20,564 nt of DNA from a virus: IMG/VR virus record IMGVR_UViG_3300020442_000218, positions 1-20,564 of that record; one strand, 5' to 3'. Below are positions 4,923-16,596 of this stretch, piece after piece. Position 1 is the stretch's first letter, and each line of letters opens with the position of its first letter. The position numbers were made by a program, and so were the translations under genes. The notes under the pieces are model-generated. The model saw nothing but the letters and a program-made list of their open reading frames with translations, did not search any database and was not told where the DNA came from.

Positions 4923-5260
4923 GCTGTGTAACCCTCACTTATAAATAGTTTACCCTCTAAATAATAGTTTTTGCTACCACCAGGTTCTGTTAATAATACG
5001 TCATAAAACAAAATACTTGGAGTAAAAGTAGCTGTCTGTGTATCTGTAAGAGAAATATCTACAATCCCACCCGTTCTATTGGTGTAAGCTACTGTCCAAT
5101 CTGCATATTTTGTGGAACGTGATTCATCATAAACTTGTGCAGCTACAGTATATCCAGTTAAATTTATTGCCGATCCAGTTGAATCTTTAAATGTGAGTCT
5201 AATGGGAAAGTCTGCTCTCCTATCAACAGTAAAATTCTTTTTTCCTGGAATTATTGCCAT
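4919..5260 (-). CDS. BppU N-terminal-like baseplate/fibre attachment protein (113 aa)
   Basis: The protein has the layout of the phage BppU N-terminal domain and related immunoglobulin-like adaptors. A start rich in Arg/Asp leads to DFPIRLTFKDSTGSAINLTGY (about 17-37), then AAQVYDE, a polar insertion, VDISLTDTQTATF (about 67-79), and the closing strands LFYDVLLTEPGG and YYLEGKLFISEG. In that family the domain anchors receptor-binding parts to the tail tip. Here it sits in the middle of the fibre cassette between the 188-aa paralogue and the 74-aa protein. It overlaps by one base upstream (TAATG) and by four bases downstream (ATGA). The assignment rests on pattern recognition of the strand motifs, not on a search. 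Confidence 0.7.
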   Translation of the reverse strand: MAIIPGKKNFTVDRRADFPIRLTFKDSTGSAINLTGYTVAAQVYDESRSTKYADWTVAYTNRTGGIVDISLTDTQTATFTPSILFYDVLLTEPGGSKNYYLEGKLFISEGYTA

Positions 5261-5796
5261 TACGTTGTTACTTCAAAAGCTGTTATTGTAGAAATGGTTT
5301 GTGCATATCTTTCATTAATTTGTTGTGCAGTTGCATTAAAATATGCAGTTCCACTTGATGAATGTCTTTGCCCATAAAGTGCATAGGTTGTGGCACTTGT
5401 AGTAGCAGGGCTATCTAAATAACTAAAACTTGTTGAAGTACCCTCCCAATAATTTGCAAATTTATGGTAAGAAGCACATCTTACAGGGTCAGAACTTCCA
5501 GCCGTTCCATCTCCCTTTGCACCCGAAATTTGTGAGCCTCCTTTATACAGTTGCCAAAATACTGGATAAGCAGAATTGTAAACACCTGATGCACCTATTT
5601 GAACCATTATCAAAACTTTACTTGCACTGCTTGATGGGGTTATTGATACAGTCATTCCTGTAATTGCAACATCACCAGTTGTTCCCCATGTAAATACGTC
5701 ACTTTTTATTGTAGAAGCACATTGAATAATTCCACCATTAGCACCACTTGGCAGCCCACCGACAGGAACGATTGAATTGACTTTAAGTTGGCTCAT
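5260..5796 (-). CDS. Tail-tip paralogue A (MSQLKVNSI family, about 178 aa)
   Basis: I place the start at 5796 (MSQLKVNSIVPVGG) rather than at the upstream in-frame ATG at 5826. The MSQLKVNSIVP opening is shared with the 194-aa paralogue. The ATG at 5796 makes an ATGA overlap with the preceding stop and has GGAGG about 7-10 bases before it. The body is a single beta-sandwich-like domain: GGIIQCAST, then ISITPSSSASKVLIMVQIG, SYLDSPATTSATTYALYGQ, ending ITAFEVTT. The pattern (SKVLI/SKLLVEF/SKFIFSA strand, then 'DSP...A...TY' strand, then terminal E-V) is common to all three tandem paralogues. It probably decorates the tail tip or fibre; the function has not been shown by anything in the sequence. 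Confidence 0.78.
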   Translation of the reverse strand: MSQLKVNSIVPVGGLPSGANGGIIQCASTIKSDVFTWGTTGDVAITGMTVSITPSSSASKVLIMVQIGASGVYNSAYPVFWQLYKGGSQISGAKGDGTAGSSDPVRCASYHKFANYWEGTSTSFSYLDSPATTSATTYALYGQRHSSSGTAYFNATAQQINERYAQTISTITAFEVTT

Positions 5797-6362
5797 GTTG
5801 TTGCAACCTCCATAACTGTTAACCAACTAGCTCCTCTTTCATAAGTTGCTGAATCATTGTCATTTACAGTCCTATTTAAGTAAAAAGTCCAAGAAGGTGA
5901 ACCACCTGTACTCTTTACATTTATTCTGTAAGTTATAGCAGTTCCAGCAGCTACGTTTGGACTATCTACGATTGAAGAAAAATTCGTAGCACTCGGTGTA
6001 GATTCATTTTCACTACTAAAATATGCTAAAGTTAAATTTCTCGTTACTCTATCTCGATTACCGATAGAACCAGTTCCACTGGCAAAATAAGTTTCAGTAC
6101 CTCCTACAACTCGTGCTAATTCATAAGCAAAATCATTATCTTGCCCATTAATTTCCGCAAAAACTTGTGCAGAAAAAATAAATTTTGAATTAGCCTGCGT
6201 TGAAGTTATGGCTGTATCTAAAGCACTTACAGCAAAATTTGTATTAGCAGAACTTATTGTGAAAGAAGAAGTAGTAGTTACATTAGTGTTTTTAACCTGT
6301 AATAACCTAGAAAAAGTACTTCCGTCAGCTTCTTGAATTTCGTTAACTCTTAATGTACTCAT
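5793..6362 (-). CDS. Tail-tip paralogue B (MSTLRVNEI family, 189 aa)
   Basis: This is the second member of the tandem family. It opens MSTLRVNEIQEADGS, then follows the same strand order as its neighbours: SSFTISSANTNFAV, ANSKFIFSAQVFAEI, a long variable middle, SSIVDSPNVAAGTAITYRI, and a conserved end GASWLTVMEVATT. The end codons (atg gag gtt) include the GGAGG site used by the next gene. Its ATG shares four bases with the stop of the XkdW-like gene. Sequence identity to the other two paralogues is confined mostly to the N-terminal decapeptide, the SK(F/L/V) strand, the DSP turn and the terminal EV, as expected of diversifying surface proteins. Its role is inferred from family and location only. 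Confidence 0.78.
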   Translation of the reverse strand: MSTLRVNEIQEADGSTFSRLLQVKNTNVTTTSSFTISSANTNFAVSALDTAITSTQANSKFIFSAQVFAEINGQDNDFAYELARVVGGTETYFASGTGSIGNRDRVTRNLTLAYFSSENESTPSATNFSSIVDSPNVAAGTAITYRINVKSTGGSPSWTFYLNRTVNDNDSATYERGASWLTVMEVATT

Positions 6363-6682
6363 GGCTTAGGATTAGCGTCTTTAACAGCTTTTATGTGAGT
6401 TGCCCAAGTGCCAGTGGTATCAAACTTACCTGCTACTAAGTCTTTGTAGATCATGTCTAGCTGATTACCATAAGAGTCATACGTTGTAGAACCGTTGGTT
6501 GTTCTGTCTGTTTGATATTTTATTGCAGCAGCTTCAGCATCTAAAGTAGCTCTTGCAGCATCTACAAGAGATTGATCTAAAGTTACAGAATTACCGCTTG
6601 CATCAAAAGCACCAGCACCATCATCAATAGAAACTACCGTTCCAGCGTATGCTTTGTAAATTGCTTCGTGATCTAAGGCCAT
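6359..6682 (-). CDS. XkdW-like small tail/fibre-assembly protein (107 aa)
   Basis: The C-terminal half carries the motif seen in many phage XkdW-like and fibre-assembly proteins: an AAAIKYQTDR helix, then SYGNQLDMIYKDLVAG (about 70-85), and WATHIKAVKDANPKP to the end. In relatives the middle usually reads YPS-GDQLDM. The N-terminal half (MALDHEAIYKAYAGTV, then DDGAGAFDASGN) is a small variable domain. The short length, conserved C-terminal helix pair and position among fibre genes point to a fibre-assembly chaperone rather than a receptor binder, but that is inference. There is no clear ribosome-binding site before the ATG. Instead a micro-ORF with a strong site overlaps its start, and a promoter-like TATAAT lies just upstream. 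Confidence 0.75.
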   Translation of the reverse strand: MALDHEAIYKAYAGTVVSIDDGAGAFDASGNSVTLDQSLVDAARATLDAEAAAIKYQTDRTTNGSTTYDSYGNQLDMIYKDLVAGKFDTTGTWATHIKAVKDANPKP

Positions 6683-6708
6683 AGTCGGTTTTTAATTAAA
6701 TTATACAT
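6673..6708 (-). other. Possible 11-codon leader ORF coupled to the XkdW-like gene
   Basis: After the stop of the 194-aa gene, GGAGG is followed at nine bases by ATG and the frame MYNLIKNRLWP, stopping 10 bases inside the XkdW-like gene, whose own start lacks such a site. It could feed ribosomes to that start by coupling. It may equally be a chance ORF created by the retained ribosome-binding site. Confidence 0.3.
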
Positions 6709-6728
6709 GGAAGTTATCCTCCTGACAC
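6700..6728 (-). promoter_or_regulatory. Candidate promoter upstream of the XkdW-like gene
   Basis: On the minus strand a perfect TATAAT (6705-6700) is preceded at 17 bases by GTGTCA (6728-6723), which matches four of six positions of the -35 consensus. It lies in one of the few intergenic gaps of the fibre cassette and would start transcripts a few bases before the ATG at 6682. AT-rich DNA makes chance matches common. Confidence 0.35.
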
Positions 6729-7298
6729 CTCCGTAACAGTAAGTGTTGATGCTTGTAAACCATCATAATGAGTTTCTGTTTGCTCACTTCCTGATCTATT
6801 TAAATAAACTGTTGAACCAGAGCTATGACCTTTCCCTTCTAAATGATATGTAATTTTATTGCCTACAGAATAACTAGGAGAATCTAAAAAAGTAAAATGT
6901 GCTTGATGTATAGCATGGGTTTTCATTGCACTTTGGTCAAAACGAATTTGTCTTGAAACTCTTGGTCTACTTCCGCTTGCATCACCTAAAAAAGGATATG
7001 CAGCATTAGAGTCGTTTATTTCTCTTACTAATCTTACTGACACCATAACTGCCTGATTACCACCCATTGCTCCACTAAATTCAACTAACAATTTACTGTT
7101 TGCTGCTTTTGGTGTAATGTTTACCTCCCATATAGAACCAGCACCAGTTTCATCTGTGCCAGCAATATTAGAAAAAGAAGTACCTGTCCAACTTGCTGTA
7201 TCACTTTTGACGTTTGAAACTATTTGAATTATTCCACCGCCACCACCTGTAGGCACTCCTGTTGTTGGTACTATGCTGTTGACTTTTAACTGACTCAT
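6714..7298 (-). CDS. Tail-tip paralogue C (MSQLKVNSI family, 194 aa)
   Basis: This is the third member of the family and the first transcribed. MSQLKVNSIVPTTGVP at the start is nearly identical to the start of paralogue A over 11 residues. A Gly-rich turn (GGGGGIIQIVS) follows, then VNITPKAANSKLLVEFSG, a basic variable loop (SGSRPRVSRQIRFD), FTFLDSPSYSVGNKITYHLEG and STVYLNRS, ending ASTLTVTEVSGG. The codons for the end (acg gag gtg tca gga gga) contain two ribosome-binding-site-like GGAGG runs. The predicted fold is a single beta sandwich. It starts three bases after the stop of the 257-aa fibre. It is likely a tail-tip or fibre-associated surface protein. Confidence 0.78.
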   Translation of the reverse strand: MSQLKVNSIVPTTGVPTGGGGGIIQIVSNVKSDTASWTGTSFSNIAGTDETGAGSIWEVNITPKAANSKLLVEFSGAMGGNQAVMVSVRLVREINDSNAAYPFLGDASGSRPRVSRQIRFDQSAMKTHAIHQAHFTFLDSPSYSVGNKITYHLEGKGHSSGSTVYLNRSGSEQTETHYDGLQASTLTVTEVSGG

Positions 7299-13327: not shown

Positions 13328-13692
13328 TATGATGCTGGTTCAAATACTTGTCTAAAAGTCGCTTGAATTTTAGCTCTGTTATTGAAAGGTATTGATTTAT
13401 TCCAACTTTCGCAAACAAATTTAAAGTTTGAAGCAGTTTCTTCAGGTAAAAAACCTTCAGCAAAATCAAAACTAGCACTATCGTTTGCACGAGCATCAAG
13501 AAAAGTTTCTATCTCATCTGCTTGAGTTTCAGATACTTCATAAGTAAAAGTAAATTCTTTTGGATTTTGATGTTGAGCTAATCCAAATAAAAGTCTATGT
13601 TCGTATCCATCAGCAAAACGAATAGTTCTGGTTTTAGGTTGAGATTTTTTACGCTGCCCATAAATAGGTTTTATTGAAGGGAAAGTAGCCAT
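13327..13692 (-). CDS. Minor tail protein, lambda M family (121 aa)
   Basis: This short all-beta protein sits between the tape measure and the L-like gene, as lambda M does. Recognisable elements are the N-terminal KPIYGQRKKSQPKTRTIRFADGYEHRLLFG-type pattern (the RFADGYEHR core at about 25-33), FTFTYEVSETQADEIETFLDAR (about 47-68), a FDFAEG strand and the closing IPFNNRAKIQATFRQVFEPAS, with the ATFRQVFEP ending common in the family. In lambda, M helps build the tail tip together with L, K, I and J. It overlaps by one base with both neighbours (TAATG), the tightest coupling in the tail block. Confidence 0.9.
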   Translation of the reverse strand: MATFPSIKPIYGQRKKSQPKTRTIRFADGYEHRLLFGLAQHQNPKEFTFTYEVSETQADEIETFLDARANDSASFDFAEGFLPEETASNFKFVCESWNKSIPFNNRAKIQATFRQVFEPAS

Positions 13693-15572
13693 TATGCAAG
13701 TATTCCTCCAGGTCTTTTTTGTTGTATTATTTCAGATTGTACCGCAGCCGAGATAAGTCGACCAAGTTCTCTTCCTCTATCTTCATCACCTTCAACTGAT
13801 GAACCAGAAGCATCTACATTTACTACTATATTTGTTGAACCACCCATACCACCTAATTGATGGTTTGGAATAACTGTGCCTGTATTTTTTGGAGTAAATA
13901 TTTCAGGACCACGTTCTCCAACAAGATATGATTGACCTGACCTAGCAGTTCCACCATTAGCCAAACCAAAGTTAGGTCCTGCAACACCTAAACCTGTTAC
14001 TGGATCATAATATCCCCCTCCTCCCATAGTTGGACCTCCACCACCAAAACCACCTAAGAAGCCACCAAACATTCCTAATATACTTTGCTGAAACTGGTTC
14101 GCTGCCATTCGTGCTGCTGATTTTATAAAGTGATCTACTATTGCATTAAACATATTTCTAAACGCATCATTAATAGACATTGTTCCTCTAATAATTCCTT
14201 CAAATGAACGTTCAAATGATTGACCCATTGTTTGAGATAAGGTAATAACTTGATAAACTGGATTTTGTAACTTCAACATTTCATCTTGCAAATCTTTAAT
14301 TTTATCTGTAATTGCAGAAATAGCTAAAACTCCTGATTGTCCAAATTGATTATTAGCTTCATTAACAAGACCTAACATTTCTCTTACTTGATCTAATGCT
14401 TCTTTAAAGTCTTTCATTCTTTTATTTCTGCCTTCTTCAAATTCTTTTTGTAATTTATTTGCCCTTCCTTCTCCATATCTTGTTGGATCGCCACCTCCTC
14501 TAAACAATAATTCTTCACCAAAATCTCTGAATCTATCTAAAAATGTTATTTGTTTTGCTTGAGCTACAGCAACATCATTTTCTGCTTTTGCTCTAGCTTC
14601 TGCCAATGCTAATTCAATAGTTGCACTATCAGTTATTAAATTTTGATTTAATAATTGTGTAGCAACTTCATTACCTATTTTCGTTCTAGCTTCAAAAATC
14701 TGATTAGCTAATTCAGCCTGTCTATTCGCAGTAGCTATACTATCAAAAGCTCCAGCATCAGCACCAAAAATTTCCGTTAAAGATTTAGCAATACTTCCAG
14801 AACCAAATTGTGCAAAAGCTCCTAATACACCAAAAGCCTCTTCTTTTGTAATTCTTAGACGTTTAGCAACTTTATCAATATCTTCTGCTGTAAGTTGAGC
14901 ACTACCGCTTACATCTGAAAAACGAACGTTTAAAGCAGCTAATGATTGATTAAATTTATCGTTTTTATCAATAGCTGTGCCTAAAGCAGTACCAACAATA
15001 GATAAAGCAAAACCAAACTGTCCACCTATAGCTCCACCAGCAAGTCCACCAAGTCCACCACCAACTGCTGCTGCTCCTGTTTGCCCAAATAATAAAGGGA
15101 AAGCTCCACCAATAGCTGCACTAGATATAGTTTGACCAAATCTTTTGCCTCTTTCTTTTCTAGCTGTTGCGTCTTTAGCTTTTGCTAATTCTCTTTCTAC
15201 TACTAATTCTGCTTTTGCAAGCGAAATTCCTTTTTTTTGTGCAACTCTTTGTACTGCTAACGCTCTTTCTCTTTTTTTTAATTGCTTATTGTACTTTTCT
15301 TCAACTTTTACTACATTTTCTACTGCCTTATTAAATTGATCCGTACCAATAGCAGCTTTATTAAGTTGTGATCTAGCATTGCTTACCTCTTTTGATAAAT
15401 TATTAAAACTCTGAACAAAACTACCTTCCTTCTTCTTCCTACCCATTTTCTTATCAACTACTCTATTAAACTTATTAATTTCTTTTGATAAAAGATTAGT
15501 CTCTGTTCTTAATTTCTTTATTTTTTCAGCACCTTTTAGGGCTACTTGTAAATTGACTTCATAATTAGCCAC
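13692..15572 (-). CDS. Tail tape measure protein (626 aa)
   Basis: This sets tail length, occupies the tube lumen and is ejected with the DNA. The gene starts with GTG. Residues 1-145 are highly charged and helical (NLLSKEINKFNRVVDKK, then YNKQLKKRERALAVQRVA). Residues about 148-200 are a Gly/Ala-rich hydrophobic segment (SSAAIGGAFPLLFG and onwards) like the membrane-active part of tape measures. A long helical centre follows. The C-terminal Gly-rich part contains SYLVGERGPEIFTPKNTGTVIPN, the classic tape-measure ending. At about 1.5 angstrom per residue it predicts a tail near 94 nm, shorter than lambda's (gpH 853). It follows the G/T chaperone reading frames and overlaps the M-like gene by one base. 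Confidence 0.93.
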   Translation of the reverse strand: MANYEVNLQVALKGAEKIKKLRTETNLLSKEINKFNRVVDKKMGRKKKEGSFVQSFNNLSKEVSNARSQLNKAAIGTDQFNKAVENVVKVEEKYNKQLKKRERALAVQRVAQKKGISLAKAELVVERELAKAKDATARKERGKRFGQTISSAAIGGAFPLLFGQTGAAAVGGGLGGLAGGAIGGQFGFALSIVGTALGTAIDKNDKFNQSLAALNVRFSDVSGSAQLTAEDIDKVAKRLRITKEEAFGVLGAFAQFGSGSIAKSLTEIFGADAGAFDSIATANRQAELANQIFEARTKIGNEVATQLLNQNLITDSATIELALAEARAKAENDVAVAQAKQITFLDRFRDFGEELLFRGGGDPTRYGEGRANKLQKEFEEGRNKRMKDFKEALDQVREMLGLVNEANNQFGQSGVLAISAITDKIKDLQDEMLKLQNPVYQVITLSQTMGQSFERSFEGIIRGTMSINDAFRNMFNAIVDHFIKSAARMAANQFQQSILGMFGGFLGGFGGGGPTMGGGGYYDPVTGLGVAGPNFGLANGGTARSGQSYLVGERGPEIFTPKNTGTVIPNHQLGGMGGSTNIVVNVDASGSSVEGDEDRGRELGRLISAAVQSEIIQQKRPGGILA

Positions 15573-15591: not shown

Positions 15592-15792
15592 TTATCTCAT
15601 TCTACCTCTTTTCCCTTTCAAAGCACTACCTCTTTGTGCTTCTTGTTGTGCTTTCTCAAAATCTTCGTGTTCAATTTCTGCATAAGCAGCCCAACCTATC
15701 AGTTCTTCTACAGTTAAAGTTTCTGACAGTTCAGCAACAGTTTTTCCTAATTCCTTCGCTAATGAAAAAATGAACTTCCAATCGTTATTAGC
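15592..15792 (-). CDS. Tail assembly chaperone T extension, expressed by frameshifting from G
   Basis: This frame has no ATG near its beginning and is open only from just after an in-frame TGA at 15798-15796. Its translation begins ANNDWKFIFSLAKELGKTVAEL and continues TVEELIGWAAYAEIEHEDFEKAQQEAQRG, ending RGRMR: 66 residues matching the style of lambda gpT and of GT-type chaperones (NDW...AKELG...EL...E.Y......W..Y). It directly follows the G-like gene and directly precedes the tape measure, as T does in lambda. The frame is +1 relative to G (codons of G end tta-side TTG AAA AGC TAA; T reads ... GCT AAT AAC GAT TGG). A GT fusion of about 182 residues would result from a slip between the TGA and the TAA. 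No independent start with a ribosome-binding site is visible. Confidence 0.8.
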   Translation of the reverse strand, partial: ANNDWKFIFSLAKELGKTVAELSETLTVEELIGWAAYAEIEHEDFEKAQQEAQRGSALKGKRGRMR

Positions 15793-15799
15793 TTTTCAA
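15788..15799 (-). promoter_or_regulatory. Probable +1 ribosomal frameshift site joining G and T
   Basis: The minus strand reads TTG AAA AGC TAA in the G frame. The T frame is closed upstream by TGA (15798-15796), so the shift must fall inside these bases. A tRNA-Lys on AAA can slip one base forward along AAAA (15796-15793) and keep three pairs, giving TTG AAA (A) GCT AAT. A -1 slip would not reach the T frame. No classical XXXYYYZ heptamer is present. An AAGGAGG lies about 23 bases upstream, which is farther than usual for a stimulator. Confidence 0.65.
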
Positions 15800-16141
15800 G
15801 TCGGCTTTAGCCTCTGATACCTCCTTAGTTTGACCAGCTTCTATCATTGCTAATTGTATTTCTTGCAAAATATTTGCTTCAACTTCTCTTCTCAGAGATG
15901 CTTTATCACCATCCTGAAAAAGTTTGTTACCATTTTTATCTAATGCCTTTTCAATCATTAACATTAAAGCAAAATCATTAGTGTCATTAGTATTTGATTT
16001 TTTTGTTATTGATTCTCTTTCAGCAATAGTAAGAGGATGCCAGTAAACACTTAAAATTAGTGTTCCATCTTTTACTACGTCATGTTGATATAGCTGGCTC
16101 ACACCAAAACTATTCTTCAGAAGTTCAACTGCTCTAGTCAT
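15788..16141 (-). CDS. Tail assembly chaperone G-like protein (117 aa)
   Basis: This gene lies between the tail terminator and the tape measure, the lambda G position. It begins MTRAVELLKNSFGV, has a beta segment (GTLILSVYWHPLTIAERESITKKS, about 27-50) and a helical, charged remainder (ALDKNGNKLFQDGDKASLRREVEANIL, about 67-93) ending SEAKADLKS. The pattern of a small PLT-type domain followed by a helical tail is typical of G-like chaperones that coat the tape measure during tail assembly. The downstream T frame supports the call strongly. In such phages the G:GT ratio matters for correct tail formation. No strong ribosome-binding site precedes its ATG, and it is separated from the terminator gene by 26 bases. 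Confidence 0.85.
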   Translation of the reverse strand: MTRAVELLKNSFGVSQLYQHDVVKDGTLILSVYWHPLTIAERESITKKSNTNDTNDFALMLMIEKALDKNGNKLFQDGDKASLRREVEANILQEIQLAMIEAGQTKEVSEAKADLKS

Positions 16142-16161
16142 AAATAATACAATGCTATTCT

Positions 16162-16192
16162 ATTATACTAGGCATTGGCTGAAAATTGGCAA
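16162..16192 (-). promoter_or_regulatory. Weak candidate promoter before the G chaperone
   Basis: TATAAT (16167-16162) is preceded by TTGCCA (16192-16187), a 5/6 match to the -35 consensus, but the spacing is 19 bases, longer than optimal. It would give a very short leader for the chaperone/tape-measure genes. The AT-rich context makes this uncertain. Confidence 0.22.
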
Positions 16193-16596
16193 GATATTAC
16201 GCCAACAAAATGACTTCTTTCTTCAATATCTAATAAACTTGGTCCTACCATATCTTGCACTCTAGGTTTTACTGAAAAAGTATCAGTATAATCAGAAGCA
16301 TTTACGGAAGTTAATCCATCTATAACTTTTTCTGCGATCTCTATTAATACTTTTGTCCCAACATTTTTAGGAACATGAATATTACATTGAATAACTCCAG
16401 AATAATAATCTAAAGCTGCACCATGAGGTTGAATAGTTGATTGTGAATAATTTACATTCATTACTACATATTTTTGCTCTTGCCCAGGAGTATTAAAATT
16501 TAGGTTGTCATAAACCATTGATATTTCTGGATCGCCATCTAAAACGGCATCAGTAACCGCTTTTTCAAATGCAGCACGAGTATTTTTTAAACTCAT
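16168..16596 (-). CDS. Tail terminator-like protein, DUF4128 type (142 aa)
   Basis: The sequence pattern fits DUF4128 / lambda U-type tail terminators: an N-terminal helix (TRAAFEKAVTDAVLD), VYDNLNFNTPGQEQKYVVMNVNYSQS (about 28-53, with the NTPG..Q.YV..N core), DYYSGVIQCNIHVPKNVGT, a helix (VLIEIAEKVIDGLTS) and a C-terminal strand ending SHFVGVISCQFSA. Such proteins cap the tail tube at the end that joins the head. It overlaps the gp10-like gene by four bases. The chaperone G starts only 26 bases after it, so the gene for the tail tube protein (lambda V), which normally follows, is not here. It does not itself look like a tail tube protein. Confidence 0.82.
   Translation of the reverse strand: MSLKNTRAAFEKAVTDAVLDGDPEISMVYDNLNFNTPGQEQKYVVMNVNYSQSTIQPHGAALDYYSGVIQCNIHVPKNVGTKVLIEIAEKVIDGLTSVNASDYTDTFSVKPRVQDMVGPSLLDIEERSHFVGVISCQFSANA

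Follow-up and report, generated by a model that had tools for sequence, protein, structure and literature searches.

How the T-like part of a tail assembly chaperone could be made from a frame lying one base forward of the preceding gene, without a conserved start of its own, is the question raised by a junction in the window, i.e. the whole 20,564-nt stretch of IMG/VR virus record IMGVR_UViG_3300020442_000218 analysed here. Comparison with several hundred related loci indicates that this is very probably the G-GT tail assembly chaperone of a lambda-like cassette, expressed through programmed +1 ribosomal frameshifting.

Gene cassette and frame layout at the G/T junction

This 20.6-kb record carries a lambda-like set of head and tail genes on its minus strand, in the order capsid, connector, tail terminator, G, T and tape measure, followed by M-, L-, K-, I- and J-like genes. 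The G-like gene (15788-16141, minus strand, 117 aa, zero frame) and the T-like extension (15592-15795, minus strand, 67 post-slip codons and a stop) are situated directly 5' of the gene for the tape measure protein (13692-15572, minus strand; PHROG 1538, tail length tape measure protein, E 1.8e-15), which is the position expected for a G-GT chaperone. G matched PHROG 20784 with E 8.5e-24, and ten out of ten family members matched the tail assembly chaperone family PHROG 344, mostly weakly (best E 5e-5; window's own G, weak, 0.016). T matched the tail protein family PHROG 337 (E 2.1e-8), as did ten of ten family members, and tblastn with T recovered the T region of Prochlorococcus phage MED4-184 (2e-4) and, weakly, that of HK97 (0.1). 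By homology, G and T are parts of a tail assembly chaperone. No relative of G was found in GTDB genomes.

Some observations on the neighbouring genes should be added. The tail terminator gene occupies 16168-16596, and no recognisable major tail protein gene was present between it and G (16141-16168), the position of lambda V, nor was one identified elsewhere in the window. Three similar genes were located in the region 5260-7298 (5260-5826, 5793-6362 and 6714-7298), the second and third both matching tail fibre family PHROG 6942 in its C-terminal part, which suggests duplicated fibre tips. The nearest named relatives of the capsid, AG-345-A17 aside, are cyanophages.

The zero frame of G ends with GAC TTG AAA AGC TAA, the TAA being located at 15790-15788 on the minus strand. 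The +1 frame contains a TGA (15798-15796, minus strand), followed immediately by AAA GCT AAT AAC GAT TGG, and stays open for 67 codons (KANNDWKFIFSLAKELGKTVAEL...) up to the stop at 15594-15592. The earlier note, made from the window alone, had described this ending of G and a gpT-like peptide in the +1 frame; both were found in the sequence, the latter with the PHROG 337 match (E 2e-8). Since the +1 frame is closed by the TGA and the zero frame by the TAA, any shift would have to occur within 12 bases (15799-15788), as had been estimated. The statement that no -1 heptamer exists holds for the window, where the -1 frame meets a stop some 11 codons on, but not for some relatives, which read GAT TTA AAA and thus contain the formal heptamer T TTA AAA; this heptamer cannot give T, because these relatives also lack an open -1 frame. 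In all 371 loci of the window's clade the -1 frame ends after 4-31 codons, and a canonical -1 extension from an X_XXY_YYZ heptamer is therefore not available.

Conservation of the +1 relation and of the proposed slip site

A first IMG/VR search with G as a query returned 80 relatives, all with T in the +1 frame and all with AAA-AG. Additional scans extended the clade set to 371 IMG/VR loci, of which 233 were distinct over 180 nt, the set including repeat copies of some contigs. TTR-AAA-AGN was present in 371 of the 371; T was open in +1 in 362 by length alone, and in the remaining nine it was cut by the contig end, truncated or near the length cut. A wider clade contributed a further 80 loci, each with a T match in +1 and with AAA-AG. 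The codon 5' of AAA varied in this wider clade (TTG, TTA, CTN, ATG) and AAA-AG was constant; AGC was the A-site codon in the great majority of AAA-AGN loci. The same layout was found in AG-345-A17 (MH327491), the amplified genome of a single virus particle sorted outside cells (the AG-345 plate derives from an extracellular sort gate; PMC6122165). Taken across these loci, the T/G junction is a recurrent and conserved layout, beyond what chance would produce.

The slip site AAA_AGC (15791-15796, minus strand) occurs in frame only at the junction within the window, where AGC accounts for 8% of Ser codons. Synonymous difference was 0.087 in the eight codons carrying the signals and 0.340 on average in the rest of G, and none of the 20,000 random draws of eight background codons was as low, a figure that describes a contrast rather than a test of a prior hypothesis, since the eight codons were picked after viewing the alignment. 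Selection on the nucleotides of the upstream Shine-Dalgarno (SD)-like element, of the hairpin and of AGC is evident from the alignments. One +1 relative (L391 1804-1908, identical to L272) has an intact slip site but an early stop, which leaves T with 21 codons.

Elements upstream of the proposed slip site

An AAGGAGG-like element (15820-15826, minus strand) has its last base 23 nt 5' of the slip AAA. Among 116 representatives of the +1 relatives, the predicted duplex with the anti-SD was -7.3 kcal/mol or better in every one, and the offset deviated by no more than 2 nt in 111 and was shifted by 5 nt in five. On the tree of 83 representatives of the window's clade, the amino-acid pair encoded by the element (KE, KG, RE or RG) changed about 19 times with complementarity retained. 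In the lineage of L382, L391 and L392, the element is displaced by a few bases in the direction of the slip (AAAGAAGGAG, AAAGAGGGAG). According to a review (PMC5009743), an SD stimulates +1 shifts at a spacing of 3 nt and -1 shifts at 9-14 nt. The 23-nt spacing lies outside these ranges and persists in lineages without the hairpin, so that the element may act in a different manner.

Between the element and the slip site, a three-pair hairpin GGC-UAAA-GCC (15803-15812, minus strand) ends 6 nt 5' of the slip AAA. It can be formed in all 83 representatives of the window's clade (SH-aLRT 99), with G-C as the outer pair in 77 and A-U in six: a G at the end of codon -6 goes with the rare GCC at codon -3, an A with GCT. 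RNAalifold predicted this 5' hairpin as the sole structure on the 83-sequence alignment, with no conserved stimulator downstream. Its stability is low (-3.5 kcal/mol), and two of its three pairs, the inner ones, are a by-product of Ala-X-Ala codons. The single-sequence fold was no better than that of shuffles, and Rfam gave no match. Covariation was rejected as proof of the hairpin, for the 83-sequence tree shows a single double change of the outer pair, and the test of paired changes over 116 rows was not significant. Beyond the window's clade, C-G, U-A and U-G pairs are also seen, and the hairpin is absent or weakened in 16 of the 116 wider representatives (mismatches in ten, full loss in six), making it an accessory feature at best; a pattern search leaving the hairpin free found +1 relatives without it, and it was rejected as a required part. 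A pairing of the GCN at codon -5 with AGC was likewise discarded, since GCN varies and AGC is constant.

In a 70S system, a hairpin adjacent to the E site was able to act like an SD duplex, stimulating +1 and damping -1 shifts (PMC6321510), although the hairpin tested there had 12 base pairs and was far more stable than the three-pair one of the phage. That the two elements represent a new kind of 5' forward-shift stimulator, in which complementarity to the anti-SD at 23 nt, outside the working range known so far, is joined in the window's clade by a mini-hairpin in the exit channel, is a tentative and rather doubtful proposal.

Proposed slippage and alternative routes to T

Ribosomal slippage at the junction would follow this scheme. 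Most ribosomes would terminate at the zero-frame stop, releasing G alone. In some, peptidyl-tRNA-Lys on AAA (15796-15794), with the uncommon AGC in the A site, would slip one base forward onto the overlapping AAA (15795-15793), the next codon being GCT in the window and GCN in relatives, and the product would be a G-T fusion with the junction ...Leu-Lys-Ala... AGC in the A site may slow the ribosome, and the SD-like element, together with the hairpin in the window's clade, may promote the +1 slip from the side where the mRNA leaves the ribosome. Only the movement from AAA to AAA reaches the T frame with full re-pairing, and the P-site codon AAA_A, which re-pairs completely one base on, is kept in every locus, in agreement with the earlier proposal that AAAA permits tRNA-Lys to slip with full pairing just before AGC. 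Among relatives, AGC or its counterpart is followed by the zero-frame stop at a distance of 1-3 codons; given this variation, the stop does not serve as the trigger, in contrast to prfB.

Other explanations need to be weighed against this one. An indel in the homopolymer AAAA of a single contig could conceal one continuous ORF, a concern that the earlier note had raised; the run of As and the offset between the frames are nevertheless kept in every relative, across the 371 clade loci, the 80 wider-clade loci and the single-particle genome MH327491, with the stops conserved at the junction in both frames, and the probability of a sequencing or assembly error is next to nil. T might otherwise be made independently by internal initiation with AAGGAGG as its ribosome-binding site, as the strength of the SD-like element could suggest, but no conserved start codon lies 3' of that element at a usable distance, for which reason its role as the T start site was rejected. 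Moreover, the +1 frame is stopped right at the 5' side of the slip in 112 of the 116 representatives (in the other four, where that stop is not adjacent, other slip sites are formally possible), 68 of the 116 have no ATG, GTG or TTG among the first 25 T codons, and any given start position is common to at most nine. Internal initiation of T, likewise considered in the earlier note, is on this evidence very unlikely.

A shift of -2, reported for phage Mu, arrives in the same frame as +1. Since a move by two bases backwards would place tRNA-Lys on UGA or UAA (in most relatives) and tRNA-Ser on AAA, without adequate re-pairing in either case, this route is likewise very improbable. The A-rich site could also bring to mind transcriptional slippage; however, the A run consists of only four As in the TTG variants, and transcriptional slippage is not known to occur on so short a run. 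Conservation of AGC and of the upstream elements would furthermore be needless for such a mechanism, which we regard as extremely improbable. Programmed +1 ribosomal slippage at AAA-AGC remains the preferred reading.

The direction of the shift can be viewed against relatives that use the opposite one. T lies in the -1 frame in KBS-S-2A, S-2L, MED4-184 and pelagiphages HTVC202P and HTVC026P, and the HK97 junction is annotated as -1. In the pelagiphage sister (HTVC) group, a clear T match was obtained in 81 of 82 loci, all 81 in -1, with GTA AAA AAA AAC invariant at the junction. The HTVC026P/HTVC202P-type junction shares with that of the window a homologous G (about 39% over 77 aa), a homologous T and the gene order, but, in contrast to the window's clade, no upstream SD or hairpin was conserved among 28 HTVC-group representatives. 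A -1 heptamer in relatives, which the earlier note had named as evidence against the +1 claim, does occur in the HTVC group and KBS-S-2A, but these form separate clades outside the +1 clade. In MED4-184 (L087 1150-1260), the -1 junction reads GCA AAG GAA TCC TAA, without a standard -1 heptamer. As all the outgroups considered have T in -1, the simplest view is that +1 is the derived state here, the direction having probably switched from -1 to +1. The G of AAA-AGC, which breaks the A run, would remove A-site re-pairing for -1 and leave AAA-A for +1.

Relation to known frameshift systems and significance

In lambda and HK97, too, a G-like gene lies 5' of the tape measure gene and is followed by an out-of-frame T-like extension without its own start, but the shift there is -1, whereas it would be +1 at AAA-AGC in the window's clade. 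With prfB (release factor 2), the phage junction would share the forward slip of one P-site tRNA, an SD-like element 5' of the slip and an A site that is presumably slow. The two differ in that the SD of prfB lies 3 nt before the P-site codon, compared with 23 nt in the phage, and that the stop in the A site is replaced by the sense codon AGC, with the phage stop variable in position. HSTV-2 and annotated actinophage chaperone sites are likewise presumed to use +1 (PMC5009743, PMC10885494), in other hosts and at other sites, and the portions of these sources considered here do not describe a conserved SD-plus-hairpin layout for them. The SEA-PHAGES training set holds 350 forward and 2,368 backward motif sites (PMC10885494). 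The assertion of the earlier note that +1 cases are rare was hence overstated, many forward sites being already annotated in actinophages, and the kind of system is known; what is new is the AAA-AGC site, the distant position of the SD-like element and the probable change of direction at the level of a clade. Neither the SD-like element nor the hairpin nor the -1 sister group figured in the earlier note.

Gene callers that ignore frameshifts miss T in this group of uncultured marine phages. Forward frameshifts lack a general sequence rule, and hundreds of natural variants of a +1 site beside a homologous -1 sister site (AAA-AGC versus AAA-AAC) offer a comparison for the determinants of shift direction, which also informs on how the upstream elements act.
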